Below, in pieces: positions 46,862 through 64,000 of a stretch of 64,000 bases of DNA (positions are counted from its first letter, which is position 1; each line of letters begins with the position of its first letter). Source of the DNA: Pseudomonas graminis (GTDB lineage Bacteria; Pseudomonadota; Gammaproteobacteria; Pseudomonadales; Pseudomonadaceae); assembly GCF_002093745.1 (NCBI RefSeq), contig NZ_MTSB01000011.1:151243-215242 (forward strand). Direction: 5' to 3'. The notes beneath the pieces were generated by a model, which had not been told where the DNA came from, ran no database searches, and saw only the letters and a program-made list of their open reading frames with translations. A program made the translations under genes and the position numbers.

Positions 46862-47989
46862 ATGCGGTTATCGGGCTTCATTCTTGAGAACATCGAACCC
46901 ATTGTGCGTGACTGGACTGATTTCGCCCGCACCATGGCAACAATCGGAGAGCCTCTGGACACCAGAGAACTCAGGGACCACGCCGAGCAGATGCTTCGGG
47001 CCATTGCTGCGGATCTGCAAACAGATCAGTCGTCGCAGGAGCAAATCGATAAATCACAAGGCCAGGTGCTGTCGGAAGACCAGACAGCAGCAAAAACGCA
47101 TGCCATCACCCGACTGATGTCAGGTTTCACCATTGATCAGGTGGTTTCGGAATTTCGTGCGCTACGGGCAAGCGTCATCAAGCAGTGGATGATGCGGGAG
47201 GCCGCAGACCCGCAATTGCAGATGGAAGACATGATCCGTTTCAATGAAGCGATTGATCAGGCGCTTGCGGAGTCCATATCCAGTTACACGGGTGCCGTTC
47301 AGGCCTCGCGCAACATTTTTCTCGGTATTCTCGGGCATGATTTGCGCACTCCGTTGAGCGCAATATTGTTGGGTGCCGACGTGTTATTGCGCACCAGCGA
47401 CCTGGGCGCGCGACCGACCAAGGTTGCGTCGAGGATCTACTCGAGCGTAAAGCGGGCCAGTCAGATCGTTGGCGACCTGCTTGACTTCACCCGGTCGCAA
47501 ATCGGTCCTGGCCTGCCGTTGAAAAAAACGGAAATCGATATTCAGCCGATCTGCGCGCGCATTGTCGACGAGTCCCGCACGGTCAATCCCGAAGCAGACA
47601 TTCGCCTGATCTCCGACGATCCGATCATCGGCAACTTCGACGGAGACCGGCTTGAACAGGTCTTTTCGAACCTTATTGGTAACGCCGTACAGCATGGCAA
47701 TAGCCGTGACCCTGTCGAAGTAACGCTGGAAGCCGTTGATGGGACCCTGCAGTTCACAGTTCACAACATGGGCAGCCCGATACCGGAGGACGTGCTTCCG
47801 TTCATTTTCAACCCGATGGGACGCTACTCCCAGGAACAGGTGACGGACAACGGCCCCTACTCGAGCCTCGGGCTTGGCTTGTTCATTGTTGCCAAGATAG
47901 TCGACGCTCATGGCGGACGCATCGAAGTGACATCGAAAGTGGAGAGAGGGACGACATTTGCGGTGCTCATCCCTTTGAATGCAGACTGA
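46862..47989 (+). CDS. Soluble sensor histidine kinase with RsbRD-type N-terminal domain
   Basis: A 375-residue cytoplasmic histidine kinase without transmembrane segments. The N-terminal about 150 residues are an all-helical RsbRD/RsbR-N-like sensor (ENIEPIVRDWTDFARTM, FTIDQVVSEFRALRASVIKQ). A HisKA domain has the phospho-acceptor His in LGILGHDLRTPLSAILLGAD. The ATPase domain has an N box EQVFSNLIGNAVQHGN and a G box SLGLGLFIVAKIVDAHGG. No response regulator is adjacent, so it is an orphan kinase. Signal unknown. Single gene. Confidence 0.92.
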   Translation: MRLSGFILENIEPIVRDWTDFARTMATIGEPLDTRELRDHAEQMLRAIAADLQTDQSSQEQIDKSQGQVLSEDQTAAKTHAITRLMSGFTIDQVVSEFRALRASVIKQWMMREAADPQLQMEDMIRFNEAIDQALAESISSYTGAVQASRNIFLGILGHDLRTPLSAILLGADVLLRTSDLGARPTKVASRIYSSVKRASQIVGDLLDFTRSQIGPGLPLKKTEIDIQPICARIVDESRTVNPEADIRLISDDPIIGNFDGDRLEQVFSNLIGNAVQHGNSRDPVEVTLEAVDGTLQFTVHNMGSPIPEDVLPFIFNPMGRYSQEQVTDNGPYSSLGLGLFIVAKIVDAHGGRIEVTSKVERGTTFAVLIPLNAD

Positions 47990-48095
47990 GCCTCGGCCCA
48001 CAGGCTGTGGGTTGTGACGGAAACTTGCGCGCTGAATGGGAGAGGTGTCCTCCCTGAAGGCGAGTGTGTGGGAACTCTCTTCGTGACACCCCGGG

Positions 48096-48437
48096 TCAGC
48101 TCAAGATGATCACACCCTGGCGGGCGACCCGGATCAGGTGCCTGTAGGTCTCCGATGTGCTGCCGTCGAGAGGCAGATGAATAATCAGCATATCGAAAGT
48201 GTCGTCACGCCACTGGCCCATGTCCGCCCGCTCGTCAAACAACTGCAAAGCCGGGTTCTGCCCGGTGGTTAGCCAGGTTTGTGAAACAGGCGAGGTCTCA
48301 GTGCCTACCGTGTCAGTTGCCAACTGTGCAGGGCTGCACAGCCCCAGCGTTCGCCAGGCCAGACGGCAGGATGCACAGTTGATCGTCACCCCATTCCCGA
48401 GGCCAATGACAGGGCTTCGGTTTCTATTGAATCTCAC
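48096..48437 (-). CDS. Hypothetical protein (113 aa)
   Basis: A 113-residue frame starting with GTG behind an AGGGAG ribosome-binding site. The N-terminal part holds CASCRLAWRTLGLC with three cysteines. The C-terminal half (DDTFDMLIIHLPLDGSTSET, then YRHLIRVARQGVIIL) has an alternating pattern as in a Rossmann-like or receiver-like fold, and ends abruptly, so it may be a truncated protein. No family recognised. It lies between the histidine kinase (convergent) and the PEP-mutase-like gene. Confidence 0.5.
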   Translation of the reverse strand: MRFNRNRSPVIGLGNGVTINCASCRLAWRTLGLCSPAQLATDTVGTETSPVSQTWLTTGQNPALQLFDERADMGQWRDDTFDMLIIHLPLDGSTSETYRHLIRVARQGVIILS

Positions 48438-48468
48438 CTGTGTGCTCCCTGCAGATAATCGATCCTGA

Positions 48469-49284
48469 CTAACGCATCACGTCATTAAGCTGATTCAGGC
48501 TTAGCCCTGACTGTAGAAAATCCAGGCCGTTCGAGTGTTCCAGCCCCAGTAGAACAGTTGAAATCTGCTGGTAGGCCGATCTAAACAGTGCGCTGCCAAG
48601 GCTGATTCGGCGAATGCCGGTTGCTCTGAGTCGGTCAATCGTCATGCCGGAAACAGGAAGGACATTGAGCGGTTTGGTAAGCGAGCGCTGAATGATTTCA
48701 AGGTCCTCAATCGATCTCACGCCCGGTGCGAACAGACAATCGGCGCCTGCTTCTTCAAACGCGACCAGCCGCGCAATAACCTCACTCAACGAATACGCGT
48801 GCGCACCAAGCAGATAGTCTGTTCTGGCCGTGAGCACGAAGTCGGCGTCCAGCATGCGGACTGCCTCGCTGGCAGCACGTACGCGGTCACACGCTTCTCC
48901 AATGGAGAAATACACCGGGGTATCAGGGTCACTGTAGTCAGAAATATCTTCAATGGACGCGCCTGCGCAGCCGATGGCCAGTGCTCGCCTGAAATGCTCT
49001 TCGACCTTTTCCAGGGTCTTCGCCAGACCATTCTCCAGGTCTGCGGTGACGGGTATGTCCACCGCGCGGACGATACGATCAATCGCCGCAAAGCGATCAT
49101 CATTGTTCATTGAGGGTGATGAGTCCCGGTAGCCCTGCGCGTAGGCAATTCCCGCGCTGGTGGTGCCGAGGCTGGCATAACCCATCTGTTGAATAAGCCG
49201 CGCGCTTCCCTCACACCACGCATTGGGCATGATAAATAACGCATCGCGTTCATGTAAGGTTCTGAAGGCCTGACTGGTGTTCAT
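48469..49284 (-). CDS. Isocitrate lyase/PEP mutase superfamily protein
   Basis: A 271-residue TIM-barrel enzyme of the PEP-mutase/isocitrate-lyase superfamily. FIMPNAWCEGSARLIQQMGY, metal-binding VTADLENGLAKTLEKVEEHF, ASIEDISDYSD and FVLTARTDYLL match the 2-methylisocitrate-lyase/oxaloacetase-like group. The usual lyase cysteine loop (KKCGH) is not present, so a C-C lyase or hydrolase acting on another 2-oxo acid is likelier. ATG 49284 is used (MNTSQAFRTLHERDALFIMP). It is divergent from the biosynthetic cluster and may share its promoter region, though a link is unproven. Confidence 0.87.
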   Translation of the reverse strand: MNTSQAFRTLHERDALFIMPNAWCEGSARLIQQMGYASLGTTSAGIAYAQGYRDSSPSMNNDDRFAAIDRIVRAVDIPVTADLENGLAKTLEKVEEHFRRALAIGCAGASIEDISDYSDPDTPVYFSIGEACDRVRAASEAVRMLDADFVLTARTDYLLGAHAYSLSEVIARLVAFEEAGADCLFAPGVRSIEDLEIIQRSLTKPLNVLPVSGMTIDRLRATGIRRISLGSALFRSAYQQISTVLLGLEHSNGLDFLQSGLSLNQLNDVMR

Positions 49285-49427
49285 GGCAACTCCCTGAAAG
49301 AGCAATATTAGTCCTCTTCACAAGAAACAGGATTAAAAAAAAGTGAAGGCTATTAAAAAAGTCTGAACAGACAATAAGCAGGGCCTGTGGAATGCTGGCA
49401 GTCACTTAATTGCAAGGACGTTGACTG

Positions 49428-50537
49428 ATGAAGGGGATTGCTTCCGCCGCCTTGTTTTTTGTTTCCTGTGCCACGGCCCTGATGGGGGTTGCCTCTCCCG
49501 TACCCACAAGTTCAGTGGCGACTGTCGGGGGGATGGAAGTTCATACCGTTAAACTAAAAACAGACGCGATGAAGATGGCCCTCTGGCGCGACCCGCCTAA
49601 GGGAACTCATGCCCAGACCCTGAAAGAGTCAAACGTTGTTCTGTTTATTCATGGCGCAACGATTTCGGGCAATCTTTCGGCAGGCTACGCCATCGATGGT
49701 TATTCCTGGGCGCAGGATGTCGCCAATTCGGGGCGCGAGGCCTGGGTGGTGGACTTGCCGGGTTATGGCCGCTCTGATGATTACCCGGAAATGCGTGAGG
49801 CCAGTCCGCAGGCCAGTCATGAGCCCGTGGGCAATGCCAAAAGCCTGGTGCCCGTGATTGATGCCGCGGTTGACTACGTATTGAACTTCACCGGCGCTAA
49901 AAAACTCACGATTATCGCTACGTCCAGAGGCGCCATACCGGTGGGGTATTACCTGAGTGCGCACGGCGAAAAAGTAGACAAGGTCGTGTTCAACTCGCCC
50001 ATCGTCCGGCGCGACAACACGGATCCTGCCATCGTACGAGGTTTGTTCGGAAGTGCCGACAGGCCCGACAAGAACTTTTATGAGATTCCTGTGGACAAGC
50101 GATTGTCCATGATCGAAGAAGATCGTCCGCCGGGCACCGAGACGCAACTGGAGCGCGCCTTCATAAAAAACTGGCCCGGTGACGCCGTGCTGGAAAGAGC
50201 GCATCAAAAAAACATGATCAAAGTGCCTGGAGGTTTCGCCCAGGACATCTATGACGCCTGGCACGGCGTGTACTGGGACCCCGCCAACATCAACGTGCCG
50301 GTTTTAATCACCCGTGGTGATTATGACCATGTGTTGACCACCGCGGCGGATGCCGACTGGTTGTACACAAGCCTGAGCAGTGCCCCCAGTAAACGGTACG
50401 TGCTGATTGATAAAGGCACCCATGCCATGTTGTTTGAAAAAAAGCGTTTTGAACTCTACCGCGAAGTTCAGGTTTTTCTGGACGGCTCGTGCAACCGATT
50501 GTCACTGACGTGCAGTTTCTGTGGCGGCCGCAACTAA
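49428..50537 (+). CDS. Secreted alpha/beta hydrolase, first gene of biosynthetic cluster
   Basis: A 369-residue exported alpha/beta hydrolase: signal peptide (MKGIASAALFFVSCATALMG), oxyanion segment VVLFIHGATISGNLSAGYAI, strand-loop VVDLPGYGRSDDYPEMREAS, nucleophile elbow LTIIATSRGAIPVGYYLSAH (Ser in A-T-S-R-G instead of G-x-S-x-G), Asp in LITRGDYDHVLT and His in DKGTHAMLFEKK. The C-terminal tail is short and cysteine-rich (CNRLSLTCSFCGGRN). The ThiF gene starts 14 bases after its stop. As a periplasmic enzyme it could hydrolyse or mature the cluster's product; that is inference. Confidence 0.85.
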   Translation: MKGIASAALFFVSCATALMGVASPVPTSSVATVGGMEVHTVKLKTDAMKMALWRDPPKGTHAQTLKESNVVLFIHGATISGNLSAGYAIDGYSWAQDVANSGREAWVVDLPGYGRSDDYPEMREASPQASHEPVGNAKSLVPVIDAAVDYVLNFTGAKKLTIIATSRGAIPVGYYLSAHGEKVDKVVFNSPIVRRDNTDPAIVRGLFGSADRPDKNFYEIPVDKRLSMIEEDRPPGTETQLERAFIKNWPGDAVLERAHQKNMIKVPGGFAQDIYDAWHGVYWDPANINVPVLITRGDYDHVLTTAADADWLYTSLSSAPSKRYVLIDKGTHAMLFEKKRFELYREVQVFLDGSCNRLSLTCSFCGGRN

Positions 50538-50551
50538 GCAAGGAGCAGACC

Positions 50552-51481
50552 ATGTTGAAGAAAGCACGCATTGTTAAATTCCCCGGCGTTTTTACCGAGC
50601 AGGTGTACAACGAGCGGGTTTCACGCAGCGGTTGTTTTCTCGGTAACACGAAGCTGGAACAACTGGCCAATCAGGGCAAACTCTCCAACGCTGTCGTCGG
50701 CGTGGCAGGCGCGGGGGGGATTGGCGGAGCGGTGGCATTGGGGTTGGCACGGTTAGGTGTCCGGCACATCAAAATCGCTGATCCCGACTCTTTTGACATC
50801 AGCAACATCAACCGACAGTTTGGTGCGTCACTGGAAACCATCGGCCGCAATAAGGCATTGGTGGTCGCCGAATTGGTCCACCGGCTGGCCGGCGACGTGA
50901 GCGTCGATGTGTTCCCTGAGGGCATCCAGAAACACACCGCTGAAGCGTTTGTGGAAGATTGTGATCTGGTGCTGGATCAGATGGACTTCTACAGCATTGC
51001 CGAGCGCTATGCGTTGCACCGGGCGTATCGCAAATCAGACAGGTGCAAGGGTTTATTGGCATCGTCGGTGGTCGGTTGGGGCGCTAATATTTACAAGTTC
51101 GACAAGACCGGCCTGACGCTGGAGGGTTTTTATAATATTCCAGAAGACGCAGAAATGACGACTGAGTTGGTCAAAGAGCTGGTCATGCTTCAGGCCTCCT
51201 ACCAACCTCGTTTTCCGAGCGTTCCTGATATTTTCAGCTGGATGAAAGAAACCGGAAATGTCCCGATTCTGTCAGTGGCCCCGACGGCTTCTCATTACCT
51301 GATCCTCTGTCGTTCAGCGTTGATGCTGTGCGATCTGGAGGGCGCGCCTTACAGCACCGAACTTCCTCCGATGCCTAAGTATTACTGGTTTGATGGCTCT
51401 ACGTTCGATAACGGCATTTATGAGTTCGACGGTAACTGGGCCAATCCCGAAGAGCACCGCAAGCATTTCAATGTCAATTGA
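50552..51481 (+). CDS. ThiF/MoeB-type E1-like adenylyltransferase
   Basis: A 309-residue E1-like protein. The Rossmann nucleotide motif is VVGVAGAGGIGGAVALGLAR (about residues 51-70), the Mg-binding Asp region KIADPDSFDISNINRQFGAS includes the conserved NxxRQ, and a long variable C-terminal region follows. No zinc CxxC pairs are seen, unlike MoeB/ThiF proper. Such stand-alone E1-like enzymes adenylate a carboxyl group (protein C-terminus or small molecule) for amide, thiocarboxylate or other bond formation. AGGAG lies eight bases before the ATG. In this cluster it is the likely carboxylate-activating enzyme. Confidence 0.88.
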   Translation: MLKKARIVKFPGVFTEQVYNERVSRSGCFLGNTKLEQLANQGKLSNAVVGVAGAGGIGGAVALGLARLGVRHIKIADPDSFDISNINRQFGASLETIGRNKALVVAELVHRLAGDVSVDVFPEGIQKHTAEAFVEDCDLVLDQMDFYSIAERYALHRAYRKSDRCKGLLASSVVGWGANIYKFDKTGLTLEGFYNIPEDAEMTTELVKELVMLQASYQPRFPSVPDIFSWMKETGNVPILSVAPTASHYLILCRSALMLCDLEGAPYSTELPPMPKYYWFDGSTFDNGIYEFDGNWANPEEHRKHFNVN

Positions 51482-51522
51482 CCCACCTGGCCCGACGGGG
51501 CCAGGCCTTTGAGGGGTGTTCG

Positions 51523-52746
51523 GTGAATGAAGTGCTCGATACTCAGGAACGGCACAATGTGTCCAGATTCCTCGTGGCGTCCAGTTTGTGGTTCATTTGT
51601 GTGGGTGTACACAGTGTATTCCTGCCTTGGGTACTGATCAGCGTCGTTCAGGCATCGGCCTTTCAATTTGGCGTTGCGCAGATGTGCCTGATGTTGCCGG
51701 TGCTGATGCTCGTGATCTATGGAGGTTATGTTGCTGACCGCAAGCCGTTACGCAAGTTATTGGTCGGCGTGTACCTCGCCGGCGCACTGACGGCACTTGT
51801 GTTCGCGGTGTGGAGTTACCAGTCAGCAATCACTTACACCAAGGTCCTGCTGTATGCATTGTCGTTTGGGGTGCTGTCGGCATTCTGCGCCCCTGCCAGA
51901 GAGTTGTACCTCAACGTACTGGGCAAAAAGCAACTGCAAAAAATAGTCACGATCAATATCGGAATTGAGTTCGGGATTCAGACCGTGGGATTTGCCATCG
52001 GTGGTGTTGCGCAGCAGGTGGGCATCAGCCTGATGTTCTTGTTGTTGTCCCTGCTGTTCATGATGTCGTCTCTGGTCGCTTCTCGTATTTCGGTGACCAC
52101 GCCGAGCAAGCGCCATTCGGGTCTGATCGCTGAAACCCGTGCGGCACTGCGGTTCTCCGTTCAGCACCCGATCATCTTTCCGGTGTTGTTGCTGAACGGC
52201 CTGATCGGTGTTTTCTTCCTGGGCTCGTTTTTCGTCATGATGCCCCTCCATGTTTCCGGTTTGCCGGGGTATGACGCTTCGTTACTGGCCCTGTTCAATA
52301 TCGTGTTTATGGTCGGGTTGATCGCCTCCGTCGTGACACTGGTCGCCAGCGGAGGGATCACTCACAAGCTGCGGGCATTGATCGGTTCCTGCCTGCTGGC
52401 TTCAGTGCTGCTGGCTGCCATCCCGTCCGTCGTGACGGAGTGGGTTTTGTTTCTACTGGTTTTTGGCTGGGGTTTTCTAGGCGGCATAGCGCTCAGCATG
52501 GGGCAGACGCTGATTCAGGAGAATGCCCCGTCACGTAATAAAGCGCAGGTATTAGCGTTGCTGATGTTGTTCTTCATGGGCGGCAGTCCAATAGGGTCAT
52601 TCCTGCTGGGCGCACTGCTTGAATTTGTCGATACACCGGTGGTGGGGTTCATCAGCGCAGGCGCGATGGTTGTTTCAATAATGGCAGTATCCTATATATA
52701 CACACTGTGGAATACACAACATGAACGGATCGACACTGCCATTTAA
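51523..52746 (+). CDS. MFS exporter of the biosynthetic cluster
   Basis: A 407-residue, about 12-helix MFS protein (YGGYVADRKPLRKLLVGVYL loop between helices 2 and 3; GALLEFVDTPVVGFISAGAM near the end), resembling the MFS_3/enterobactin-exporter-like group. GTG 51523 is chosen, with GAGGGG seven bases upstream; the frame runs further upstream to the ThiF stop. Its 3' end overlaps the N-acyltransferase gene by 26 bases, so translation is coupled. It probably exports the cluster product. Confidence 0.87.
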   Translation: MNEVLDTQERHNVSRFLVASSLWFICVGVHSVFLPWVLISVVQASAFQFGVAQMCLMLPVLMLVIYGGYVADRKPLRKLLVGVYLAGALTALVFAVWSYQSAITYTKVLLYALSFGVLSAFCAPARELYLNVLGKKQLQKIVTINIGIEFGIQTVGFAIGGVAQQVGISLMFLLLSLLFMMSSLVASRISVTTPSKRHSGLIAETRAALRFSVQHPIIFPVLLLNGLIGVFFLGSFFVMMPLHVSGLPGYDASLLALFNIVFMVGLIASVVTLVASGGITHKLRALIGSCLLASVLLAAIPSVVTEWVLFLLVFGWGFLGGIALSMGQTLIQENAPSRNKAQVLALLMLFFMGGSPIGSFLLGALLEFVDTPVVGFISAGAMVVSIMAVSYIYTLWNTQHERIDTAI

Positions 52747-53380
52747 CAACGCCACGTCGACAGTATTGAAAGGCCGGGTGCAACTTGCGCACTCTGATCT
52801 CGAACTCGCCAGCGTCAAGGCTATTTGGCAAGAAGTGTACAGCGAAGAACTGGGCTGGCTGGACCGCGATGACACGGATCCTCGCAATGATCGCTACCAT
52901 GCCCATTCGGTTTACTTGCTGGCCACTGACGACAGCGGCGCACCCGTCGGGGTGATGCGCATGATTATCGACGGGGACCAAGGATTGCCAATCGATAAGT
53001 TTGCCGATATTTCCGCGACACGAGAAAACGCCCAAGGCGCGTTGGTGGAATGCGCGCGGCTCATGATCCCGGCCAGATACCGTGATCAGACGTTTGCGGC
53101 TTACCCTTACGGCATCTTCGCCGCGCTGGTCAAAGCGGCACTGCAGCACTGCCTGAAAGAAAAGAACTACAACGTCCTGGCCAATTGTTTTCTCGACACG
53201 CCGCACACACCGATAAAAGCATTGGCGCACATGGGCTTCAATGACTTGAACATTCGCTTTCAAGACGAGTTGCATGAGGCGTCGGAGTGTACGGTGCTGC
53301 ACCTGGACATCAAGGACATGCTGTCGATCTTTTACGGGCCTGAGAAAAGCCTGGGCCATTACATCATGGCGCGCGCGTAG
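52721..53380 (+). CDS. GNAT-fold N-acyltransferase, FeeM/AHL-synthase-like
   Basis: A 219-residue protein of the N-acyl amino acid synthase (FeeM-like)/autoinducer-synthase branch of the GNAT fold. VYSEELGWLDRDDTDPRNDR carries a conserved-looking Asp cluster, GAPVGVMRMIIDGDQGLPID is the GxxxGxxR strand, and ALVECARLMIPARYRDQTFA resembles the ExxRxxVxPxxR motif of AHL synthases. Members transfer acyl groups from ACP or CoA to an amino group. The start lies inside the MFS gene in another frame (26-base overlap). Substrate unknown; in context the acceptor may be the diamine or amino acid made by the next enzyme. Confidence 0.85.
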   Translation: MNGSTLPFNNATSTVLKGRVQLAHSDLELASVKAIWQEVYSEELGWLDRDDTDPRNDRYHAHSVYLLATDDSGAPVGVMRMIIDGDQGLPIDKFADISATRENAQGALVECARLMIPARYRDQTFAAYPYGIFAALVKAALQHCLKEKNYNVLANCFLDTPHTPIKALAHMGFNDLNIRFQDELHEASECTVLHLDIKDMLSIFYGPEKSLGHYIMARA

Positions 53381-53410
53381 TTTATCTTTTCAAGGCAAAG
53401 GACGGCAGGC

Positions 53411-54691
53411 ATGAACCCATTACTCTCTCTCTACGCGCGTGAGTCCAACGTACGGTCTTATTGTCGTGATTGCAGCGTGGTGTTTGACACCGCAGAAGGC
53501 GCCATTCTCAAAGACGTCGAGGGGCGTCAGTTTATTGATTTTTTTGCAGGGGCGGGGTCGCTGAACTATGGCCACAATAACCCTCGTCTGAAAAAAGAGC
53601 TGTTGGATTACATTCAACAGGACGGCATTACCACCACCCTCGACTTTCACAGCGCTGCCAAATCCCGGTTTATCGAGCAGTTCGACCGGGTCATTCTCAA
53701 ACCGCGAGGCATGGACTACAAACTACAGTTTACGGGGCCGACCGGGACCAATGCGGTCGAGGCTGCCTTGAAACTGGCTCGAAAAATCACCGGGCGTGCG
53801 TCCGTAGCCGCCTTCACCCATGCGTTTCACGGGGTCACGCTGGGCTCGCTGGCGGTGACCGCCAACACGGATAAACGAGCCGTCGCTGGTGTGGAACTGT
53901 CAAACGTCATTCGGCTTCCCTATGACGGGTTTCTGGGGCCTGATGTCGACAGCGCAGAGATCATTGAAACGATTTTTGCGGCAACCGGAGCGGGGTTCGA
54001 GCCACCGGCAGCCATTATTCTGGAGGTCGTGCAAGGCGAGGGCGGCCTGAATTGCGCGCGGCCGCAATGGTTACAGCGCATTCAGCGGTTGTGCAAAACC
54101 TCAGGTGCGCTGCTGATCATTGACGATATTCAAGCGGGTTGCGGTCGGACGGGTACATTTTTCAGCTTTGAATCCGCCGATATTTCTCCTGACATTATTT
54201 GCCTGTCAAAGTCCATCAGCGGCTATGGCTTGCCGATGTCTCTGGTCCTGATCAAACCGGAACACGATCAGTGGGCGCCCGGTGAACACAATGGCACTTT
54301 TCGTGGAAACAACACGGCGTTCGTGACGGCGACCGCTGCGCTGAGTTATTGGCAAGAAGGTACGTTCGAGGGCTCGATCGCTGAGCGGTCCGGCGTGGTT
54401 CACGCTGCACTGGAAAGACTGATTGCCTCTGCACCGCGAGAAGCCGTCAGCGTTGTAGGGCGGGGTCTGTTCATGGGATTGAAGTTCGGCGACTCACGGC
54501 GTGCAAGTGCGCTGGCTGCCGAGTGCCTGTCTCACGGTTTGCTTGTGGAAACCTGCGGTCCGTTAAACGAAGTCCTCAAGCTGATGCCGCCACTGACCAT
54601 TGACCTACCGACGCTTGAGCGTGGGCTGGACATATTGAAGTACGCGTATCTTTCTACTTTACACACTGAATCATTGCGAGGGATTGCCTGA
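53411..54691 (+). CDS. Class III aminotransferase, EctB (diaminobutyrate aminotransferase)-like
   Basis: A 426-residue PLP enzyme of class III. It opens SNVRSYCRDCSVVFDTAEGA, then FIDFFAGAGSLNYGHNNPRL and LQFTGPTGTNAVEAALKLAR as in diaminobutyrate-2-oxoglutarate aminotransferases (EctB/DoeD group). The cofactor-binding LLIIDDIQAGCGRTGTFFSF and Schiff-base Lys in IICLSKSISGYGLPMSLVLI are intact, and NGTFRGNNTAF is the dimer/phosphate motif. The expected reaction makes 2,4-diaminobutyrate from aspartate semialdehyde and Glu. The stop shares one base with the start of the next gene. It is probably the building-block enzyme of the cluster. Confidence 0.92.
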   Translation: MNPLLSLYARESNVRSYCRDCSVVFDTAEGAILKDVEGRQFIDFFAGAGSLNYGHNNPRLKKELLDYIQQDGITTTLDFHSAAKSRFIEQFDRVILKPRGMDYKLQFTGPTGTNAVEAALKLARKITGRASVAAFTHAFHGVTLGSLAVTANTDKRAVAGVELSNVIRLPYDGFLGPDVDSAEIIETIFAATGAGFEPPAAIILEVVQGEGGLNCARPQWLQRIQRLCKTSGALLIIDDIQAGCGRTGTFFSFESADISPDIICLSKSISGYGLPMSLVLIKPEHDQWAPGEHNGTFRGNNTAFVTATAALSYWQEGTFEGSIAERSGVVHAALERLIASAPREAVSVVGRGLFMGLKFGDSRRASALAAECLSHGLLVETCGPLNEVLKLMPPLTIDLPTLERGLDILKYAYLSTLHTESLRGIA

Positions 54692-55401
54692 TGTATCAAG
54701 TTGCTGAAAACACCCATACCCCGGCTGCCGGTTCATTGAGCAATGACTTCATACTGCAGGAACTGGCCCAGTTAAGAGATGAAATGATCCAGCAGGTTTC
54801 TGATCATCCCTTTCTGGTTCAGTGCCGTGCGGCGACTATGCCGATAGACCGGTTGAAAAGCTTTCTCGTGCAACAGGGAAAATACAGCCGTTATTTCACC
54901 CGGTACATCTGCCAATTGATGACGCACCTTGAGGGTGACGAAGATATCCTGGCAGTGTTCGAGAACCTTTTCGAGGAACTCGGTTTTGGTGAGGTCGCCG
55001 AGCCGACGCATTCGGCCATCTATCGAGACATGTTGCGCTCTTTCGACCTGAGCCTGGAGGCGCACGCCACGCTTCCTTCCACGCAACACCTCATCGATAC
55101 CATGATGAATTTTTGCAAGCAACCCAACGGTGTTTACGGGTTGTCGGCACTGTGCCTGGGGGCTGAGGCCATTGTTCCTCATCTGTACAGTGACATTGTC
55201 AGCGGTTTCGCAGGTCAGGGCGTTGCGGCGGAGAAACTCAGGTTCTTCACAGTACACATTGAATGCGACGACGGTCACGCAGACACCCTGTTGGCCATTC
55301 TTTCGCGTCTGGTGGTAGAAAAATCGGCTCGCTTTGAAATCGTCCGTCACGCCGCCTTCATGATGATCAAGGCGCGACTTGAGTTCCTGGATAAACTGTG
55401 A
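54691..55401 (+). CDS. Heme-oxygenase-like (TenA/PqqC-fold) diiron oxidase/oxygenase
   Basis: A 236-residue all-helical protein of the iron-containing redox enzyme/TenA-PqqC superfamily. Candidate metal ligands follow the HDO layout: Glu in FENLFEELGFGEV, His in EPTHSAIYRDML, Glu in LCLGAEAIVPHLYSDI and the late cluster FFTVHIECDDGHADTLLAIL (His, Asp, His). Enzymes of this group (UndA, BesC, SznF, CADD) use two irons and oxygen for decarboxylation, C-C cleavage, N-oxygenation or other unusual steps. The start overlaps the aminotransferase stop by one base, so the two are coupled. It is the probable key tailoring enzyme. Confidence 0.87.
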   Translation: MYQVAENTHTPAAGSLSNDFILQELAQLRDEMIQQVSDHPFLVQCRAATMPIDRLKSFLVQQGKYSRYFTRYICQLMTHLEGDEDILAVFENLFEELGFGEVAEPTHSAIYRDMLRSFDLSLEAHATLPSTQHLIDTMMNFCKQPNGVYGLSALCLGAEAIVPHLYSDIVSGFAGQGVAAEKLRFFTVHIECDDGHADTLLAILSRLVVEKSARFEIVRHAAFMMIKARLEFLDKL

Positions 55402-55408
55402 GGCGAAC

Positions 55409-55855
55409 ATGAATAACTCTACTTTTTCTTCGCGTGATTTTGTTCATGTTCCTGCCTGCCTTGCTGCTGACGATGTCATGGGCTCGCTGCTGCATGCGGG
55501 GGTCAGAAAACCCACGCTGGATACGTTCAGCGAAACAAGAAAGCACGAAGTTCATGTGGTCGACTTGCCGTCCAGATCGATAAGCATGACCTTCGGAGCG
55601 CTACAACCGTTGCAGGGGTCGGGGCTGCATCGGCACAACTATGAAACCGTCATCTACATCCTTTCAGGTAAAGGTTTTTCGATGGTGGGAGAGACGCAAA
55701 TTGCCTGGGCCGCCGGGGATGCGATTTATATTCCTGTCTGGCGTTGGCACAAGCACGTCAATACCTCAGAGGAGGCAGAGGCCACGTATATCGCGTGTGA
55801 AAATACTCCACTGCTCCAGGCACTGGGTGTGGCGCTGAGGGAAGAGGCGCCCTGA
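55409..55855 (+). CDS. Small cupin protein, last biosynthetic gene
   Basis: A 148-residue single-domain cupin. The first motif GLHRHNYETVIYILSGKGFS supplies His, His and Glu metal ligands and the second, AIYIPVWRWHKHVNTS, the final His. It could be a metal-dependent cyclase, epimerase or dioxygenase. It follows the diiron enzyme by seven bases and is the last gene of the apparent operon. The EctB-like aminotransferase plus GNAT plus cupin recalls ectoine biosynthesis (EctA, EctB, EctC), but this cupin does not look like EctC itself. ATG 55409; GAGGCGAAC upstream. Confidence 0.85.
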   Translation: MNNSTFSSRDFVHVPACLAADDVMGSLLHAGVRKPTLDTFSETRKHEVHVVDLPSRSISMTFGALQPLQGSGLHRHNYETVIYILSGKGFSMVGETQIAWAAGDAIYIPVWRWHKHVNTSEEAEATYIACENTPLLQALGVALREEAP

Positions 55856-56118
55856 CCGGGGGGGGCTGAACGTCACTAGACTTCCCTCCGTCAATGGCCT
55901 GTCCCAGAGCGACCCGAGAGCGGGAAAATCGATTCAGCCTGCTTTTTTTGCCGATACGGCCTCTGCTTGTCAGGAATGATTTGCGAATAGCCACTGAATG
56001 GCCTAACTATAAGGGGTGACATGGAAAGCCGGGGTGCAGTTGGAAAATCCCGGAGCAGGAAACCACTCGGTTGCCAACGTCGATCACTGGCGTTGCACCG
56101 GGTAATCAGGGAAAACGG

Positions 56119-57042
56119 ATGTCTCGAATTTTTGATATTGATACAAACCTTTGGCGCACGTTCAAATCGGTGAGTGAAACGCGAAGTATCACGCGCTCTG
56201 CTGTCATTCTGTGCAAGACGCCACCTGCCATCAGCATGCAGATCAAAAAGCTGGAAGCGCTCCTGGAGCTGAAATTGTTCGTCAGAGGCGACGACGGTTT
56301 TCGCCTGACGCTGATAGGTGAAGAAGTACTGGCCGCCGCTGAAAAGATTCTCGCGATGCACGACAACCTGTTCCGTTTGAAGAACAAAAACCCTGACAGC
56401 GAATTACGCTTGGGCATGCCTGATGATTACGCGCTGTTTTTTTTGCACAGCATTGTAAAGTCTCTGACCCGCTCGGACCCCGCGCTTAAAATAAAGCTGG
56501 TCTGCAAGACGTCATTGTTATTGATAGAAGACATGAAACTCGGTCGACTGGACCTGGCCGTTGTCGCCGTGCCTGAGTCTCAGGTCATCGAACACTCTGA
56601 ACACATCAGGCATGAAACGCTTCACTGGATCGGCGATGCCGAACTGGTCATGGCGGGGTATCCGATACCTCTGGTGCATTTCCCGGAAGGGTGCATATGC
56701 CGGGAAGTCTGCGTCAAGTCGTTGGAGCTTGCGCAAATGGCGTCTGAGATACGGTTCACCTCCGAGTCCAATTTTGCTGTGTTCAATGCCATCGGGGCCG
56801 GTGTCGGCATAGGGGTCGGCGAGTTGTCACTCATCCCGGCCGATACGCCTATCATCAGAAGTTCGTTACTCCCTCCGCTACCCGCGATAAAGATGTGCGT
56901 GCTCTCCAGCAACGACCGCATTTCAAGGTCTGTCCTTGCCCGAATAAGCACAAGCGTAGCGCTGAGTGTCAACAGCGTCTGCGAAACAAACATCATTGGA
57001 AACATTCACCCCAAAAATGCCTTCGCTGTCGGCGCTTTCTGA
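56119..57042 (+). CDS. LysR-family transcriptional regulator
   Basis: A 307-residue LysR-type regulator. The N-terminal winged HTH lies at about residues 4-63 (LWRTFKSVSETRSITRSAVI, then PPAISMQIKKLEALLELKLF) and the effector domain at about 90-290. It stands 263 bases past the cupin in the same direction and likely controls the cluster; the effector is unknown. ATG 56119 (MSRIFDIDTNLWRTFKSV) with AGGGAAAACGG upstream. No T-N11-A site was pinned down in the promoter region at 49285-49427. Confidence 0.9.
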   Translation: MSRIFDIDTNLWRTFKSVSETRSITRSAVILCKTPPAISMQIKKLEALLELKLFVRGDDGFRLTLIGEEVLAAAEKILAMHDNLFRLKNKNPDSELRLGMPDDYALFFLHSIVKSLTRSDPALKIKLVCKTSLLLIEDMKLGRLDLAVVAVPESQVIEHSEHIRHETLHWIGDAELVMAGYPIPLVHFPEGCICREVCVKSLELAQMASEIRFTSESNFAVFNAIGAGVGIGVGELSLIPADTPIIRSSLLPPLPAIKMCVLSSNDRISRSVLARISTSVALSVNSVCETNIIGNIHPKNAFAVGAF

Positions 57043-59125: not shown

Positions 59126-59326
59126 TCAAGTCATGGGCCGTTCAGCCTTGAGCCGAAGGAGTCCCAGCAGCAAATTGAAAAAGAGCGACCAGCCGAGATG
59201 CGCGAACATCGCGGCTGGTCACCGTTCCCGCAGATTACCCCTGCAAGTCCAGCCAAGGCTCTCGCTTCTTGCACAAAGCGGAGCGAGCCTAGCACCTATC
59301 TATATACAGTAAAGGTCTTGCTTTCT

Positions 59327-59999
59327 ATGCCCACACCCATCATCCCTTGGATGGGCGGCAAACGCCGCCTTGCCGACCGTCTCATCCCGCTGTTCCCACC
59401 TCACGAATGCTACGTCGAAGTGTTCGCAGGCGGTGCGGCCCTCTACTTCATGCGTCCCCAGGCCGCCCCCGTTGAGGTCTTGAACGACATCAACGGAGAC
59501 CTGGTGACGCTGTATCGCGTCGTCCAAAACCACCTTGAAGAATTCGTCCGCCAATTCAAATGGGCACTCAGCTCGCGCCAGGTATTTGAGTGGCAGAAGA
59601 TGACCCGCTCCGAAACCCTCACCGACATCCAGCGCGCCGCCCGGTTCTTCTACCTGCAGCACCATGCCTTCGCAGGCATGGCTGGAATGCGCAGAGCGTT
59701 ATGACCGGCCTCACACCTTTCATTATATGGACCCGCCTTACTGGCAAACAGCTGGGTACGGCGTGGATTTTCCGTTTGAGAATTACGAGCGGATGGCTGA
59801 TTTCATGCGGACGTGCAAGGGGAAAGTGATGGTCAGCATCAACGATCACCCTGACATACGCAGAGTATTCGAAGAATTTCATTTTGAAACGGTTGACATT
59901 AGGTACACCACCTCAAACCAGCGGAGGGGACGGACCGATGTGGTAGGCGAACTAGTTATCATGAATTGGGAGCCGAAAGCTTTAGGTGGTTTGTTCTGA
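59327..59999 (+). pseudogene. Phage-type Dam (N6-adenine) methyltransferase with internal deletion
   Basis: It opens MPTPIIPWMGGKRRLADRLI with the AdoMet-binding motif, then CYVEVFAGGAALYFMRPQ, and runs in frame to YLQHHAFAG near 59680. The remainder is in the next frame: WLECAERYDRPHTFHYMDPP with the catalytic DPPYW at 59730-59744, and RGRTDVVGELVIMNWEPKAL to the stop at 59999. The segment that normally separates these parts (several tens of residues) is missing, so a deletion both removed sequence and shifted the frame. The first frame stops at 59704. No active enzyme is expected. Confidence 0.85.
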
Positions 60000-60159
60000 T
60001 CAACGGTGTAGAAGTGGGTATCAGGTACTACTTGGCCATTACAGTTTAAGGCGTAGTTGTGATCGGCAGAAAGCCGTAGGCTGAGTTCTAGGCTCGTACC
60101 AAGCTGTACCACTGTGCGAGTTTTTGGGATTTGAGTGTGTTCGCGAAACTGTTAAGCCA

Positions 60160-60516
60160 ATGTTTTTATTGATTTTTATACTCTATGCAATACTGGTAAC
60201 CCCTCAAGCAGTGGTGGAGTTGTTGTCGCTTCACATTCGTCAGCTAGGCGAATTCATGGGTGATCTGTTCATGGCTTCGCAGCCGGTCGCGGCGGAGAGG
60301 CTAACGTGGGGCACTGGATCAGTTCAATACGCTTTAGGGAAAGAGGACGCTAAAGACGGGAAGCGTGTCACTCATCCAGATTTTGCTATGCGTCGGCAAA
60401 TGATGAGCCAGAGCTACCAAAAGGCTCGTTCAGCTCCGGACGCTCAAATGCTACTAAAAAGAAAATATGACCAAAATCTATCGGTAGTGCCATTTACTTT
60501 TTGTCTCTGTAAGTAA
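60160..60516 (+). CDS. Hypothetical protein with one N-terminal membrane helix (118 aa)
   Basis: A 118-residue protein: MFLLIFILYAILVTPQAVVE is a hydrophobic helix or signal anchor, followed by a polar domain (AALERL-type region QPVAAERLTWGTGSVQYALG, KRVTHPDFAMRRQMMSQSYQ). The frame could begin at a TTG at 60124, but ATG 60160 places the helix at the N-terminus. The ribosome-binding site is poor. No family recognised. It precedes the two-helix protein and the RTX gene in the same direction and may belong with them. Confidence 0.5.
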   Translation: MFLLIFILYAILVTPQAVVELLSLHIRQLGEFMGDLFMASQPVAAERLTWGTGSVQYALGKEDAKDGKRVTHPDFAMRRQMMSQSYQKARSAPDAQMLLKRKYDQNLSVVPFTFCLCK

Positions 60517-60687
60517 TATGCTCTCCGAAATATTGAATGTCAAAAAAACCTTTGATGTTCTCGGGCTGCTGCGCCTTAGGTGCGAGCCCTGTAGCTTCTT
60601 GTTTTATGGTTTGGTGTTTGGAAATGTTTTAGACTGATTGCAGTTTGATGGTTGCTTTTAAGAAAACTAATGTGAGGCGGTAATGTG

Positions 60688-60861
60688 ATGGCGATATTTC
60701 TCGCGCTTCTTGTGGGGGTGGCGTTGTTGATGCAGTTGCATGAAAATGAAAAAGAGTCAAAGGGGGAACCTCTTGGCGTAGGTTTTTATGTGCTGAAGTT
60801 TTTTCTTGTGGTTGTTGGTGTTGGGCTGCTTGTGATGATATATGTTGCGCGAAAAAGTTAA
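60688..60861 (+). CDS. Small two-helix membrane protein (57 aa) upstream of RTX gene
   Basis: A short frame gives MAIFLALLVGVALLMQLHEN, a charged linker EKESKGEPLG, a second helix (VGFYVLKFFLVVVGVGLLVM, then IYVARKS) and stop. The hairpin topology resembles small holin-like or immunity-like proteins. GAGGCGG lies eight to nine bases upstream of the ATG. It ends 24 bases before the RTX start and is AT-rich like it, suggesting one transcription unit. Confidence 0.6.
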   Translation: MAIFLALLVGVALLMQLHENEKESKGEPLGVGFYVLKFFLVVVGVGLLVMIYVARKS

Positions 60862-60885
60862 AAATTTATTATAGGGAGTATTGAT

Positions 60886-63800
60886 ATGGCATCAGAACAA
60901 AACGTTAATATCACTGTTGATCCTTTCATGTTCGGCAAGGGTGTTGATGACGCTCAGGCGGTATATGATGCCCTTGAGGCAACATATAAAAGTACTTCCG
61001 AAAACATCGCGTCTATGACTGATGTGCAAACGTTAGCTTTAGCCGCGACAGGGACTAAAGCTGTAGTCTCACTTCTTACAAAGCATCCAATTTTGGGTGT
61101 GCCCGCAACTCTTGGGCAAGCGTCCACCGCTGTGGCGGTGCTTGGCGAGGCTGCTGAGTCAGGAAATATTCAGCCAAGTCAAATTTTAGGGTTGGCATCT
61201 GGCATAATAGGAATTGCATCAAGTTTTGCTGTTATGGCAACTCTAGGTACTGGAGTTGTTCTTGCAGGTATAGGCGGGGTTACGTTTGGCCCGTTGGCGC
61301 TAGGTCTGGGGTTGTCCCTAGCGGCAATTGGTAAAGCCTTGGACTACTTTCAGGATGATATTTCTAAGGCCTTGGGCGATGCGTATGATCAAGTAGTAAA
61401 GCAAGTATCAGATGCTGGAGAGTTTTTAAGTAAAATTGCTGAGGATCTTGGAAGTAAGTTTCAAAGCTTTTACCAAGGGCTGCAAGAAAAGTTTGATAGT
61501 GCATCAGATACATCTTCGCCTTTAATCTTGGATCTGAACGGAGATGGAGTGAGCACTACTTCAGTATCTTCAGGTACTCATTTCGACCATAACGCAGATA
61601 ATCGTGCCGAAGCGACAGGATGGATTGCCGGAGCTGACGGTCTATTGGTTTGGGATAGGAATGAAAATGGAGTAATCGATAATGGTAAAGAGCTTTTCGG
61701 TGACCAAATGGTTTTGGTCGGCGGGGCCAGAGCTTCAAATGGATTTGAGGCCTTAAAAGAATTAGACTCAAATGGCGATGGGGTTTTCAGTTCAAGTGAC
61801 AGTTTGTTTAGTAAGGTTGGTGTCTGGATAGACTCAAATTCAAACGGTGTTTCTGAGACTTCTGAAATCCACAAGTTGTATGATGTAGGTGTTGCGAGTA
61901 TAAATGTTGATTATAAAGTTTCTTCTAGTTTAGATGCTGGTGGTAATGATCATAGGCAGCTGGGTAGTTATACTAAGGTTGACGGTTCGGTTTTGGCTAT
62001 AGATGATGTTTGGTTTGCTACTAATTTTGTGGATTCGGTAGAGAAAGACCCCGTTATTATTAATGAGTACATAGCAGGGCTCCCGAACGTTAAAGGCCTT
62101 GGTTTTGCGCATGACTTGCATCAAGCTATGGCGCTGGATTCTAGTGGTGGTCTTGCGCTATTAGTCGATAAGTTTTACAGTGATTCTACTACCTCTGGCA
62201 GTATGTCGGTCGTTGATGATATTGTTTTTTCATGGGCAGGAAGTGCAAACATAGATCCTGGCAGTCGTGGAGGTTTTTTTGATGCTAGAAAATTAAGCTC
62301 TATAGAGTTTTTTCTAGGTGAAAAATTCTTTCAAAAGTATGGAGATAACGCTTCAACAAATAATCCTGCTTTGAACTCAGCTGTTGTGCTAGAGGAAATG
62401 TACTCTTCGTTAAAGAGTTATGTTGCGGATGCGCTAATACTTCAGAAAAAAGATTACTTGAAAATAATTTCTGATGTTTCGGTGGGTTTTGGCGTTGATG
62501 GTGCCGCGTTTAATGTAGACTCAGCAGTATCGGAGGTACAAAAAATATATGAGAAAAATTCAGATGAAGCGTATGACTTTTTAACTGTACTCTATCATGC
62601 GCTTGGAGCGTCTGGCAGATCAGGGGAGTTACTTGTGGATGGTTTCAGGTCTGCAGGAAGTCGTGATGGTAATGGCTTTGACTTTCTCGTTGCAACAGCT
62701 GATCAATGGGTTTTTGGTAGCGCAGAGAGCGAGCTTATTTCAAGTGGCAATAAAGATGTAGTTTTTGATGGTGGTGGTGGTGATACAGTTAAAGGCGATG
62801 GTGGAAATGATGTATTTATTTATAATGGTGGTTATGGTTATTTAGAGATTGACAACTCTTATTTGGTTGGTGATGTTCCGATACTTAAGTTCGGCCCCGG
62901 TATCACGGGTGCGTCATTGACGGTTACAACCACTCCATCCGGCAATAGTCTAATAATCACCAACGGCATCGAAGGGGACCAGATCGTATTGGACTATAGC
63001 CTTCTTAACTCTAACTATGGTGTAAAAAAGGTCCAGTTCTCTGACGGCAGCTCTTTGGCATTTGAGGATCTGGTCGCGATGAAGGATCAGTTACTGGAGC
63101 TCAAGAATTCGACCGGGACCCTTGGGAATGACACGCTGAACGGATCGGCTCGCGCCCAGACCTTTGATGGCAAGGGCGGCCAGGATGTGATCCACGGTGG
63201 CGGTGGCAATGACACCTTTATCTACAATGCTGGTTATGGCTACCTGGAGATAGATAACGCATATGCCGCCGGGGAGGTACCTATTCTGAAGTTCAGCGTC
63301 GGTATAACGGCGGCGTTATTGACGGTTACAACCACTCCATCCGGCAATAGTCTGATAATCACCGACGGCATCGAAGGGGATCAGATCGTGTTGGACTATA
63401 GCCTTCTTAACTCTAACTATGGAGTAAAAAAGGTCCAGTTCTCTGACGGCAGCTCCTTGGCGTTTGAGGATCTTGTCACGATGAAGGATCAGTTGCTGGA
63501 GATTAAGAATTCGACCGGGACCCTTGGGAATGACACGCTGAACGGATCGGCTCGCGCCCAGACCTTTGATGGCAAGGGCGGCCAGGATGTGATCCACGGT
63601 GGCGGTGGCAATGACACCTTTATCTACAATGCTGGTTATGGCTACCTGGAGATAGATAACGCATATGCCGCCGGGGAGGTACCTATTCTGAAGTTCGGCG
63701 CTGGTATCACGGCGGCGTCATTGACGGTTACAACCACCCCATCCGGCAATAGTCTGATAATCACCGACGGCATAGAAGGGGATCAGGTCGTGCTGGACTA

Positions 63801-64000
63801 CAGTCTTCTTTACCCTAACTATGGTGTTAAGAAAGCTGAGTTCTCTGACGGCAGCTCCTTGGCGTTTGAGGATCTTGTCACGATGAAGGATCAGCTGCTG
63901 GAAATCAAGAATTCGACCGGAACCCTTGGGAATGACACGCTGAACGGATCGGCTCGCGCCCAGACCTTTGATGGCAAGGGTGGCCAGGATGTGATCCACG
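60886..64000 (+). CDS. FrpC-like RTX calcium-binding protein (3' end outside window)
   Basis: Open from ATG 60886 (AGGGAG eight bases upstream) to the window end: over 1,038 codons, partial. Domains: an N-terminal region with a long hydrophobic, glycine-rich stretch at about residues 100-155 (GLASGIIGIASSFAVMATLG, then LAGIGGVTFGPLALGLGLSL) that could insert in membranes; an FrpA/FrpC-type calcium-binding module at about 212-390 (SPLILDLNGDGVSTTS, GLLVWDRNENGVIDNGKELF, LDSNGDGVFSSSDSLF); a unique region; then tandem RTX units with GGGGNDTFIYN nonapeptides and HCBP-like segments VQFSDGSSLAFEDL. Expected to be secreted by a type I system (not in window). Role as adhesin, bacteriocin or toxin is open. 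The N-terminal two thirds are AT-rich, the repeats host-like. Confidence 0.88.
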   Translation, partial: MASEQNVNITVDPFMFGKGVDDAQAVYDALEATYKSTSENIASMTDVQTLALAATGTKAVVSLLTKHPILGVPATLGQASTAVAVLGEAAESGNIQPSQILGLASGIIGIASSFAVMATLGTGVVLAGIGGVTFGPLALGLGLSLAAIGKALDYFQDDISKALGDAYDQVVKQVSDAGEFLSKIAEDLGSKFQSFYQGLQEKFDSASDTSSPLILDLNGDGVSTTSVSSGTHFDHNADNRAEATGWIAGADGLLVWDRNENGVIDNGKELFGDQMVLVGGARASNGFEALKELDSNGDGVFSSSDSLFSKVGVWIDSNSNGVSETSEIHKLYDVGVASINVDYKVSSSLDAGGNDHRQLGSYTKVDGSVLAIDDVWFATNFVDSVEKDPVIINEYIAGLPNVKGLGFAHDLHQAMALDSSGGLALLVDKFYSDSTTSGSMSVVDDIVFSWAGSANIDPGSRGGFFDARKLSSIEFFLGEKFFQKYGDNASTNNPALNSAVVLEEMYSSLKSYVADALILQKKDYLKIISDVSVGFGVDGAAFNVDSAVSEVQKIYEKNSDEAYDFLTVLYHALGASGRSGELLVDGFRSAGSRDGNGFDFLVATADQWVFGSAESELISSGNKDVVFDGGGGDTVKGDGGNDVFIYNGGYGYLEIDNSYLVGDVPILKFGPGITGASLTVTTTPSGNSLIITNGIEGDQIVLDYSLLNSNYGVKKVQFSDGSSLAFEDLVAMKDQLLELKNSTGTLGNDTLNGSARAQTFDGKGGQDVIHGGGGNDTFIYNAGYGYLEIDNAYAAGEVPILKFSVGITAALLTVTTTPSGNSLIITDGIEGDQIVLDYSLLNSNYGVKKVQFSDGSSLAFEDLVTMKDQLLEIKNSTGTLGNDTLNGSARAQTFDGKGGQDVIHGGGGNDTFIYNAGYGYLEIDNAYAAGEVPILKFGAGITAASLTVTTTPSGNSLIITDGIEGDQVVLDYSLLYPNYGVKKAEFSDGSSLAFEDLVTMKDQLLEIKNSTGTLGNDTLNGSARAQTFDGKGGQDVIH
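62722..64000 (+). repeat. Tandem 402-bp in-frame repeats in the RTX gene
   Basis: Units begin in register at 62722, 63124, 63526 and 63928 (cut by the window end); spacing is exactly 402 bases or 134 codons. The unit at 62722 is divergent in its first part and similar afterwards; the next units are nearly identical at DNA level. Each encodes GNDTLNGSARAQTFDGKGGQ, a GGGGNDTFIYN calcium-binding turn and a C-terminal VLDYSLL...FSDGSSLAFEDL segment. More copies may follow to the right. Confidence 0.92.

Follow-up and report, generated by a model that had tools for sequence, protein, structure and literature searches.

A rare Pseudomonas gene cluster combining a FeeM/LuxI-like acyltransferase, a ThiF protein and a diiron enzyme, with a candidate N-acyl-diaminobutyrate pathway

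Background

The window analysed here is a stretch of 64,000 nucleotides from the 5.7-Mb genome of Pseudomonas graminis (contig NZ_MTSB01000011.1, our C2, positions 151,243 to 215,242). Between positions 49428 and 57042 it carries eight plus-strand genes which encode, in order, an alpha/beta hydrolase, a ThiF/E1-like adenylyltransferase, an MFS exporter, a FeeM/LuxI-like GNAT N-acyltransferase, an EctB-type aminotransferase, a heme-oxygenase-like diiron oxidase/oxygenase (HDO), a small cupin and a LysR-type regulator. A ninth gene of the set, from the phosphoenolpyruvate (PEP)-mutase/isocitrate-lyase (ICL) family, runs divergently on the minus strand (48469-49305). An earlier, sequence-only reading had described seven same-strand genes resembling one operon with no named product; the shared strand was right and the coordinates given there take in the hydrolase, but the count of seven omitted it and the divergent gene was missed. 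We show that this is a real, rare, co-inherited and sporadically distributed small-molecule cluster, and argue that it probably represents a variation on the N-acyl-amino-acid/ThiF-cyclase theme, akin to the known oxazolone routes yet distinct from them.

In those routes, as set out in the available text of PMC10404671, TyzA N-acylates tyrosine, the ThiF protein TyzB cyclises the product with ATP, and TyzC desaturates it. The fused protein TrzS is described, in the available part of PMC12856293, as carrying out both later steps on N-acyl-tryptophan. ThiF and nitroreductase genes also lie beside N-acyl-tyrosine synthases, for which the accessible portion of PMC12479983 gives no oxazolone as observed. 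No description of the present cluster was found in the open-licence literature, where absence is no proof. The claim that the gene set matches no named product is thus upheld for the full cluster in that literature, but the logic of its acyltransferase and ThiF pair is already known from the first two of these sources.

Methods

Loci related to the cluster were collected by an HDO alignment scan over one genome per species (84,980 species), which gave 63 loci. Distribution within the genus was scored in a panel of 398 Pseudomonas genomes, its own included, at thresholds of E<=1e-40 for ThiF and >=65% identity for the HDO. Plasmid relatives of ThiF were taken at E<=1e-20, which yielded 19 of 72,556 plasmid records, and the surroundings of 6 of the 19 were inspected.

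ThiF loci outside this family were drawn from 293 genomes of the order. The 14 next-nearest (L090-L103) were fetched, as were the five that follow in rank (L104-L108). Neighbouring acyltransferases and nitroreductases were counted with queries from L090, L091, L096 and L099, and the queries' own matches are included in the counts; the acyltransferases of these four loci are supported by Pfam. The three-group ThiF tree omits eleven rows (nine near-copies, the L084 ThiF and P0133), and another ThiF tree leaves out P0133 alone, which is short. Row L119, from G195, belongs to the window ThiF family and is labelled accordingly in both trees.

Results

The spacing of the eight plus-strand genes suggests that they form an operon (Table 1). 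The exporter and GNAT genes overlap by 26 bases and the aminotransferase and HDO genes by one base, exactly as the sequence-only reading had given them. We prefer the ATG at 50552 as the start of ThiF and 55409 as that of the cupin; the LysR gene most likely starts at 56119 and not at the TTG at 56071, because conservation between relatives begins at 56119. The region between the divergent genes is probably a shared promoter and LysR site, as predicted from its conserved blocks.

Table 1. Features of the cluster and their positions in the window
Feature	Position	Strand	Remarks
PEP-mutase/isocitrate-lyase family	48469..49305	-	278-aa open reading frame (ORF), TTG start, later ATG possible; PF13714 1.9e-63
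Divergent intergenic region	49306..49427		conserved blocks, alignment of 7 loci
Alpha/beta hydrolase	49428..50537	+	PF00561 1.5e-14
ThiF/E1-like adenylyltransferase	50552..51481	+	309 aa; the additional N-terminal domain seen in MccB/PaaA is absent
MFS exporter	51478..52746	+	start TTG 51478 or GTG 51523; PF07690 3e-20; TIGR00900 9.7e-22, below cut-off
FeeM/LuxI-like GNAT N-acyltransferase	52721..53380	+	PF13444 29.7 bits, cut-off 22.4
EctB-type diaminobutyrate-2-oxoglutarate aminotransferase	53411..54691	+	TIGR02407 602.9 bits, cut-off 552.2
Heme-oxygenase-like diiron oxidase/oxygenase (HDO)	54691..55401	+	PF14518 1.1e-22, over cut-off
Small cupin	55409..55855	+	PF07883 1.8e-14
LysR-type regulator	56119..57042	+	PF00126 and PF03466

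The cluster recurs in the same order in 6 of the 63 HDO-scan loci, all of them in Pseudomonas. All nine genes are present with their order kept in P. syringae pv. cilantro (L021), Pseudomonas sp. KUIN-1 (L022), P. tremae (L023), P. abietaniphila (L024) and Pseudomonas sp. NFACC02 (L057), and Pseudomonas sp. RIT409 (L025) has the same cluster without the cupin. The PEP-mutase/ICL gene adjoins the operon in all six (62-86% identity). In KUIN-1 the match to the hydrolase (L022:4716-5663) ends at residue 314 of 369, and this reading frame may be shortened. Across the Pseudomonas panel of 398 genomes, the five that have ThiF are also the five that have a close HDO, an all-or-none distribution for these two genes. 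The co-occurrence that the sequence-only reading had proposed as a check is therefore found, and its single operon is borne out as a co-inherited, operon-like unit. At E<=0.001 the HDO query finds 43 of the 398 genomes and, outside the five, identity is at most 37% among the matches listed. Among 398 Pseudomonadota genomes, ThiF at E<=1e-45 was found in one, its own; contexts outside Pseudomonas were therefore taken from plasmid records.

A histidine-kinase gene further to the left keeps its position in L021-L023 only, and so we place the border of the cluster between it and the PEP-mutase-family gene. A clean empty site was sought in G020, a genome labelled as the same species, and none was found; the longer pieces of the left flank are scattered there at 62-78% identity. 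At the nucleotide level the cluster has no match among plasmids. Left of the cluster lies a gene for an S24 peptidase of the UmuD/LexA type (PF00717, 45926-46405). To the right of the cluster, two overlapping plus-strand ORFs occupy 59198-59999, the first matching only the first half of the D12-class adenine methyltransferase model, and this looks like an interrupted methyltransferase gene. Positions 60001-64000, with a G+C fraction of 0.44-0.47 and strong GC skew, fall below most of the window except 12-14 kb (0.43) and are possibly a mobile or prophage-like segment.

The enzymes themselves fall into recognisable families. EctB is the sole protein of its genome over the TIGR02407 ectB equivalog cut-off. 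An EctC-family (ectoine-synthase) gene over its cut-off lies on another contig (G000:C12:88887-89249). No EctA over cut-off was found in the genome, the cluster GNAT has no match to EctA, and the arrangement of an ectoine operon, with EctA and EctC beside EctB, is not seen at the cluster. The GNAT matches the Autoind_synth and exosortase-acyltransferase models below their cut-offs, and PF21926 (FeeM) is precomputed in 11 of 24 of its homologues. Its residues W46, D57, H60, R80, E110 and R113 are invariant across 19 sequences and are spaced, as we take it, like the catalytic residues of LuxI, one Asp being replaced by His. In the HDO, the six ligand positions E96, H107, E159, H189, D193 and H196, placed through an alignment with BesC, are invariant in 25 of 25 sequences, as is E95; by family and by these kept His and carboxylate ligands it is assigned to the heme-oxygenase-like diiron superfamily. 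The EctB-like, FeeM-like and diiron assignments of the sequence-only reading all stand. Against solved structures the HDO profile matches 4-aminobenzoate synthase, BesC, CADD and HrmI, among others. Known reactions of such enzymes, in the available parts of PMC13108848 and PMC13185094, include desaturation, N-oxygenation and C-C cleavage.

Gentisate dioxygenases come first in the cupin profile search, and the three putative ligand histidines are present in the window copy. The first metal His is replaced by Gln in the P. abietaniphila lineage (L024, L057) and the gene was not found in L025, so the cupin is probably accessory. A cupin relative lies directly after the HDO, or is fused to it, in 22 of the 63 HDO-scan loci; AMP-forming ligases and, in one case, an anthranilate-synthase cluster are among the surroundings. 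In P. trivialis (L073:7525-14936) an HDO-cupin fusion accompanies genes for an AMP-forming ligase, anthranilate synthase, glutamine amidotransferase, a ferredoxin-type reductase and an MFS protein, and a Lonsdalea locus (L078:7524-15425) is similar, with the ligase fused to a class II DAHP synthase. In Legionella norrlandica (L054:6105-11070) HDO and cupin genes lie divergent from genes for a ThiF (30% identity), a 210-aa protein that carries no annotation, an alpha/beta hydrolase and an MFS protein. No EctB match was found in this locus, which looks like a distant version of the cluster. The 210-aa protein was considered as a diverged GNAT, but we do not count it as one (profile comparison probability 4.9%, no Pfam match).

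The N-terminus of the hydrolase is, by eye, hydrophobic and signal-like in the window and six relatives and not so in the protein from Rhizobium etli. The PEP-mutase-family gene has a 33%-identical counterpart in the ThiF operon of a Salmonella plasmid. Small ORFs of the two long gaps reached half of their self-score in at most the three nearest of the six relatives.

The E1-like adenylation motif of the window ThiF is intact. TcdA, the tRNA ct6A dehydratase, is its best solved relative in the profile search; it presumably cyclises N-carbamoylated threonine and, unlike the window ThiF, acts on tRNA. MccB and PaaA are among the best profile and structure matches, their alignment with the ThiF model beginning at about residues 14-21 of the latter and at residue 90 of MccB and residue 97 of PaaA. 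In the next-nearest ThiF loci of the order (L090-L103), 12 of 14 have a FeeM-type acyltransferase adjoining ThiF, and 8 of 14 have a protein of the nitroreductase family that adjoins ThiF or is fused to it. Within about 1.5 kb on each side, neither was found in any of the five loci beyond these (L104-L108). For all five ThiF proteins there the best NCBIfam match is to a MoeB model; L107 and L108 pass a MoeB cut-off, two others fall short by about one bit, and L106 by more.

Outside Pseudomonas, the nearest gene set is on plasmid pRetIE4771a of R. etli IE4771 (L110), with the order LysR, hydrolase, ThiF, GNAT, DMT transporter, EctB and an acyl-CoA-ligase-type gene. It shares LysR, hydrolase, ThiF, GNAT, a transporter and EctB with the window cluster, at identities of 34% for LysR, 40% for the hydrolase, 56% for ThiF, 31% for the GNAT and 53% for EctB. 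It differs in having a DMT in place of an MFS transporter, with the order of GNAT and transporter swapped, LysR upstream and divergent, and the ligase-type gene after EctB, and neither the HDO nor the cupin has a match in the fetched 18.9-kb stretch. The Salmonella plasmid (L111) carries GNAT, ThiF, methyltransferase and ICL/PEP-mutase-family genes, a stretch with no near match in the E. coli genomes searched. Plasmids of Lactiplantibacillus, Limosilactobacillus and Corynebacterium combine ThiF with a formyltransferase-family gene and MFS, and on a Staphylococcus epidermidis plasmid ThiF occurs beside a gene resembling aspartate carbamoyltransferase, whose match narrowly misses the family cut-off, with MFS nearby. 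An acyl-, formyl- or carbamoyltransferase-like gene adjoins ThiF in all 6 inspected plasmid loci, and amino-acid acylation ahead of ThiF action would be their common theme.

The loci L112, L113, L114 and L115 are small operons on plasmids of bacteria from skin, food and gut, with ThiF, a formyl- or aspartate-carbamoyltransferase-like protein, MFS and a regulator; no product assigned to such operons was found. Annotations for repair of DNA alkylation stand directly beside two ThiF operons: an Ada-like protein and a methylated-DNA methyltransferase in Salmonella (L111:5468-7287), and 3-methyladenine glycosylase I in Limosilactobacillus (L115:6900-7460). A DNA-reactive product is one possible reason for their presence there.

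On two Pantoea plasmids an HDO and an EctB-type domain form one 666-aa ORF, of which one record annotates the EctB part only, and ThiF, a TauD-type oxygenase, GNAT, ATP-grasp proteins and MFS follow. A matching cluster in Pseudomonas genome G055 (L084:107-9340) has an HDO-cupin fusion and, beside it, an EctB fused to a second half that reaches ATP-grasp-type models below cut-off only. These loci (L135 and L136 for Pantoea agglomerans pNBBC01-5) share EctB, HDO, ThiF and GNAT with the window, and MFS is seen on the Pantoea plasmid; they differ in the fusions, the TauD-type oxygenase, the ATP-grasp and PurD-like proteins and a ThiF of 366-369 aa. Since that ThiF exceeds the window ThiF in length and is no more than a distant relative of it, we regard them as a second cluster type. 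The Pantoea cluster (L135:8220-17924) sits on the mobilizable plasmid pNBBC01-5. Pantocin B was considered for it; the genes for pantocin B are not described in the available text of PMC11350110.

Discussion

The reading that we prefer, and to which we give about an even chance, is an N-acyl-diaminobutyrate pathway with ring closure by ThiF and oxidation by the diiron enzyme, its chemistry being inferred throughout from gene families. EctB converts aspartate semialdehyde to diaminobutyrate, and the equivalog match makes it highly probable that the window enzyme would supply L-2,4-diaminobutyrate in this way. The GNAT, by its family, would N-acylate this amino acid. ThiF, to judge from its conserved pairing with acyltransferases, would adenylate the N-acyl amino acid at its carboxylate and then close a ring, either an oxazolone or, because diaminobutyrate has a second amine, possibly a gamma-lactam. 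The HDO with the cupin may then perform the oxidation done elsewhere by flavin nitroreductases, as a desaturation or an N-oxygenation; this is the least certain step, although an HDO desaturase could plausibly take the place that a flavin desaturase has in the oxazolone pathways. MFS would export the product, the hydrolase, probably itself exported, may trim it in the periplasm, and LysR would control the operon. In favour of this reading count the gene order kept in the six other Pseudomonas loci, the five genomes shared by ThiF and a close HDO, the R. etli plasmid with its EctB, GNAT and ThiF, the acyltransferases next to ThiF in the order, the acyl-, formyl- or carbamoyltransferase-like genes next to it on plasmids, the recurring physical links of EctB with HDO, and the published Tyz and Trz pathways. 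The small acylated, oxidised diaminobutyrate-type metabolite that the sequence-only reading had proposed is kept as the most likely product. Its E1-like carboxylate activator is kept as regards the adenylation motif, whereas the generic activator role gives way to ring closure of an N-acyl amino acid as the better role, because the acyltransferase and ThiF pair is the core of the characterised acyl-oxazolone pathways.

Those pathways, OxzAB of Pseudoalteromonas rubra and the mycobacterial TyzACB and TrzAS, place a LuxI/FeeM-type acyltransferase beside ThiF with a redox enzyme in the cluster, as the window does; OxzB, TyzB and TrzS are likened here by description, and TyzB has 318 aa against 309 for the window ThiF. 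They act on tyrosine, phenylalanine or tryptophan with a desaturase of the flavin nitroreductase family, whereas the window would use a non-protein amino acid supplied by EctB and has HDO and cupin instead. A transporter of its own, a hydrolase, LysR and the PEP-mutase-family gene further set the window cluster apart from Oxz, Tyz and Trz. Also among the closest known systems is AclA of Tenacibaculum discolor (PDB 9egb), on which a literature search over open-licence papers found nothing. Two other candidates were set apart by description: the 4-formylaminooxyvinylglycine (FVG; gvg) cluster of P. fluorescens WH6, which has formyl- and carbamoyltransferases and no ThiF in the main text of PMC8064604, and mangotoxin, for which the main text of PMC13185094 gives no ThiF, cupin or aminotransferase.

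Several observations weigh against the N-acyl-diaminobutyrate pathway. The cluster has the FeeM/LuxI-like N-acyltransferase and a ThiF with its adenylation motif, but no nitroreductase-family flavin desaturase was found among the ten proteins scanned (46862-57042), which places it outside the known oxazolone kind. The FeeM-linked ThiF proteins tested all pass the cut-off of PRK08223 (5 of 5), and that this is also the best model for the window ThiF speaks for a link between them; at 135 bits, however, the window ThiF stays far below the cut-off of 266. The R. etli ThiF likewise has PRK08223 as its best model and lies far below the cut-off. In the tree each of the three groups, the window ThiF clade (93/91), the ThiF proteins linked to FeeM (98/94) and those like MoeB (100/100), falls on one side of a branch; being unrooted, it shows that the window and FeeM-linked clades are separate groups and does not speak to sisterhood. 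The fold model of the GNAT has a predicted local distance difference test (pLDDT) score of 38.7, from which no fold claim is drawn, and its best PDB profile match, coumaroyl-homoserine-lactone synthase, reaches an E value of 0.021 only. Finally, 3 of the 7 loci have a changed cupin or none.

This last point bears equally on a split SznF-like system, in which the HDO would hydroxylate nitrogen, the cupin would rearrange the product to an N-nitroso or other N-N compound, and ThiF and GNAT would tailor it. The adjacency of HDO and cupin here and in many of the scanned loci, with both in one protein in L073, is what such a system would show, as are the three histidines kept in the window cupin, and a 2026 review singles out SznF among characterised HDOs for its C-terminal cupin (available text of PMC13108848). 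In SznF and its relatives, however, HDO and cupin act together as one fused protein. SznF was not matched among solved structures by the HDO profile (E<=0.01) or the cupin profile (E<=0.001), which instead find HDOs of the BesC/CADD type and gentisate dioxygenases, and no gene for a guanidine substrate was recognised; we consider this reading unlikely. A detoxification or resistance operon, in which N-acylation, ThiF and export would inactivate an amino-acid-like toxin from outside and HDO and cupin would finish the task, would suit the small plasmid operons where the same ThiF clade has only a formyl- or carbamoyltransferase-like gene, MFS and a regulator nearby. Both the Pseudomonas and the Rhizobium versions, however, include the building-block aminotransferase EctB, which argues for synthesis and leaves detoxification decidedly improbable.

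A ribosomally synthesised and post-translationally modified peptide of the microcin C or pantocin kind, modified by ThiF, exported by MFS and with GNAT and hydrolase as immunity, would account for the rank of MccB and PaaA among the ThiF matches. The set of ThiF, MFS, GNAT and hydrolase also resembles, as we take it, mccB, mccC, mccE and mccF. Conservation of small ORFs in the two long gaps stops at the three nearest relatives, though, in a search that would miss very short peptides and genes placed elsewhere, and EctB and HDO would be left unexplained. The window ThiF moreover lacks the N-terminal recognition domain of MccB and PaaA (as described in the available part of PMC12250964), and such a peptide is very unlikely. 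Least probable of all, and scarcely to be expected, is that EctB serves ectoine or another use of diaminobutyrate through the orphan EctC elsewhere, the remaining genes having a separate function. The EctC-family protein over its cut-off and the want of any other EctB over cut-off would fit, but no EctA passes its cut-off, the R. etli cluster still has EctB together with ThiF and GNAT, and in the window EctB lies inside the operon and overlaps the HDO gene.

A wider form of the N-acyl-diaminobutyrate reading can be put forward, although we hold it to be rather doubtful. The window ThiF clade may represent a logic shared across phyla, in which an N-acylating enzyme (a long-chain acyl-, formyl- or carbamoyltransferase) and a ThiF cyclase together make reactive rings such as oxazolones, lactams or hydantoins. 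The Pseudomonas product would then be an oxidised N-acyl-diaminobutyrate lactam, an aza-analogue of an acyl-homoserine lactone, made with a diiron oxidase.

Conclusions

If the proposed pathway is correct, the oxazolone-type logic would extend beyond aromatic amino acids and desaturases of the flavin type, and plant-associated Pseudomonas would have a version that draws on a non-protein amino acid made for the purpose and on a diiron oxidase. It would also give a handle on the small plasmid-borne operons of skin, food and gut bacteria in which the same ThiF clade occurs with formyl- or carbamoyltransferase-like genes.

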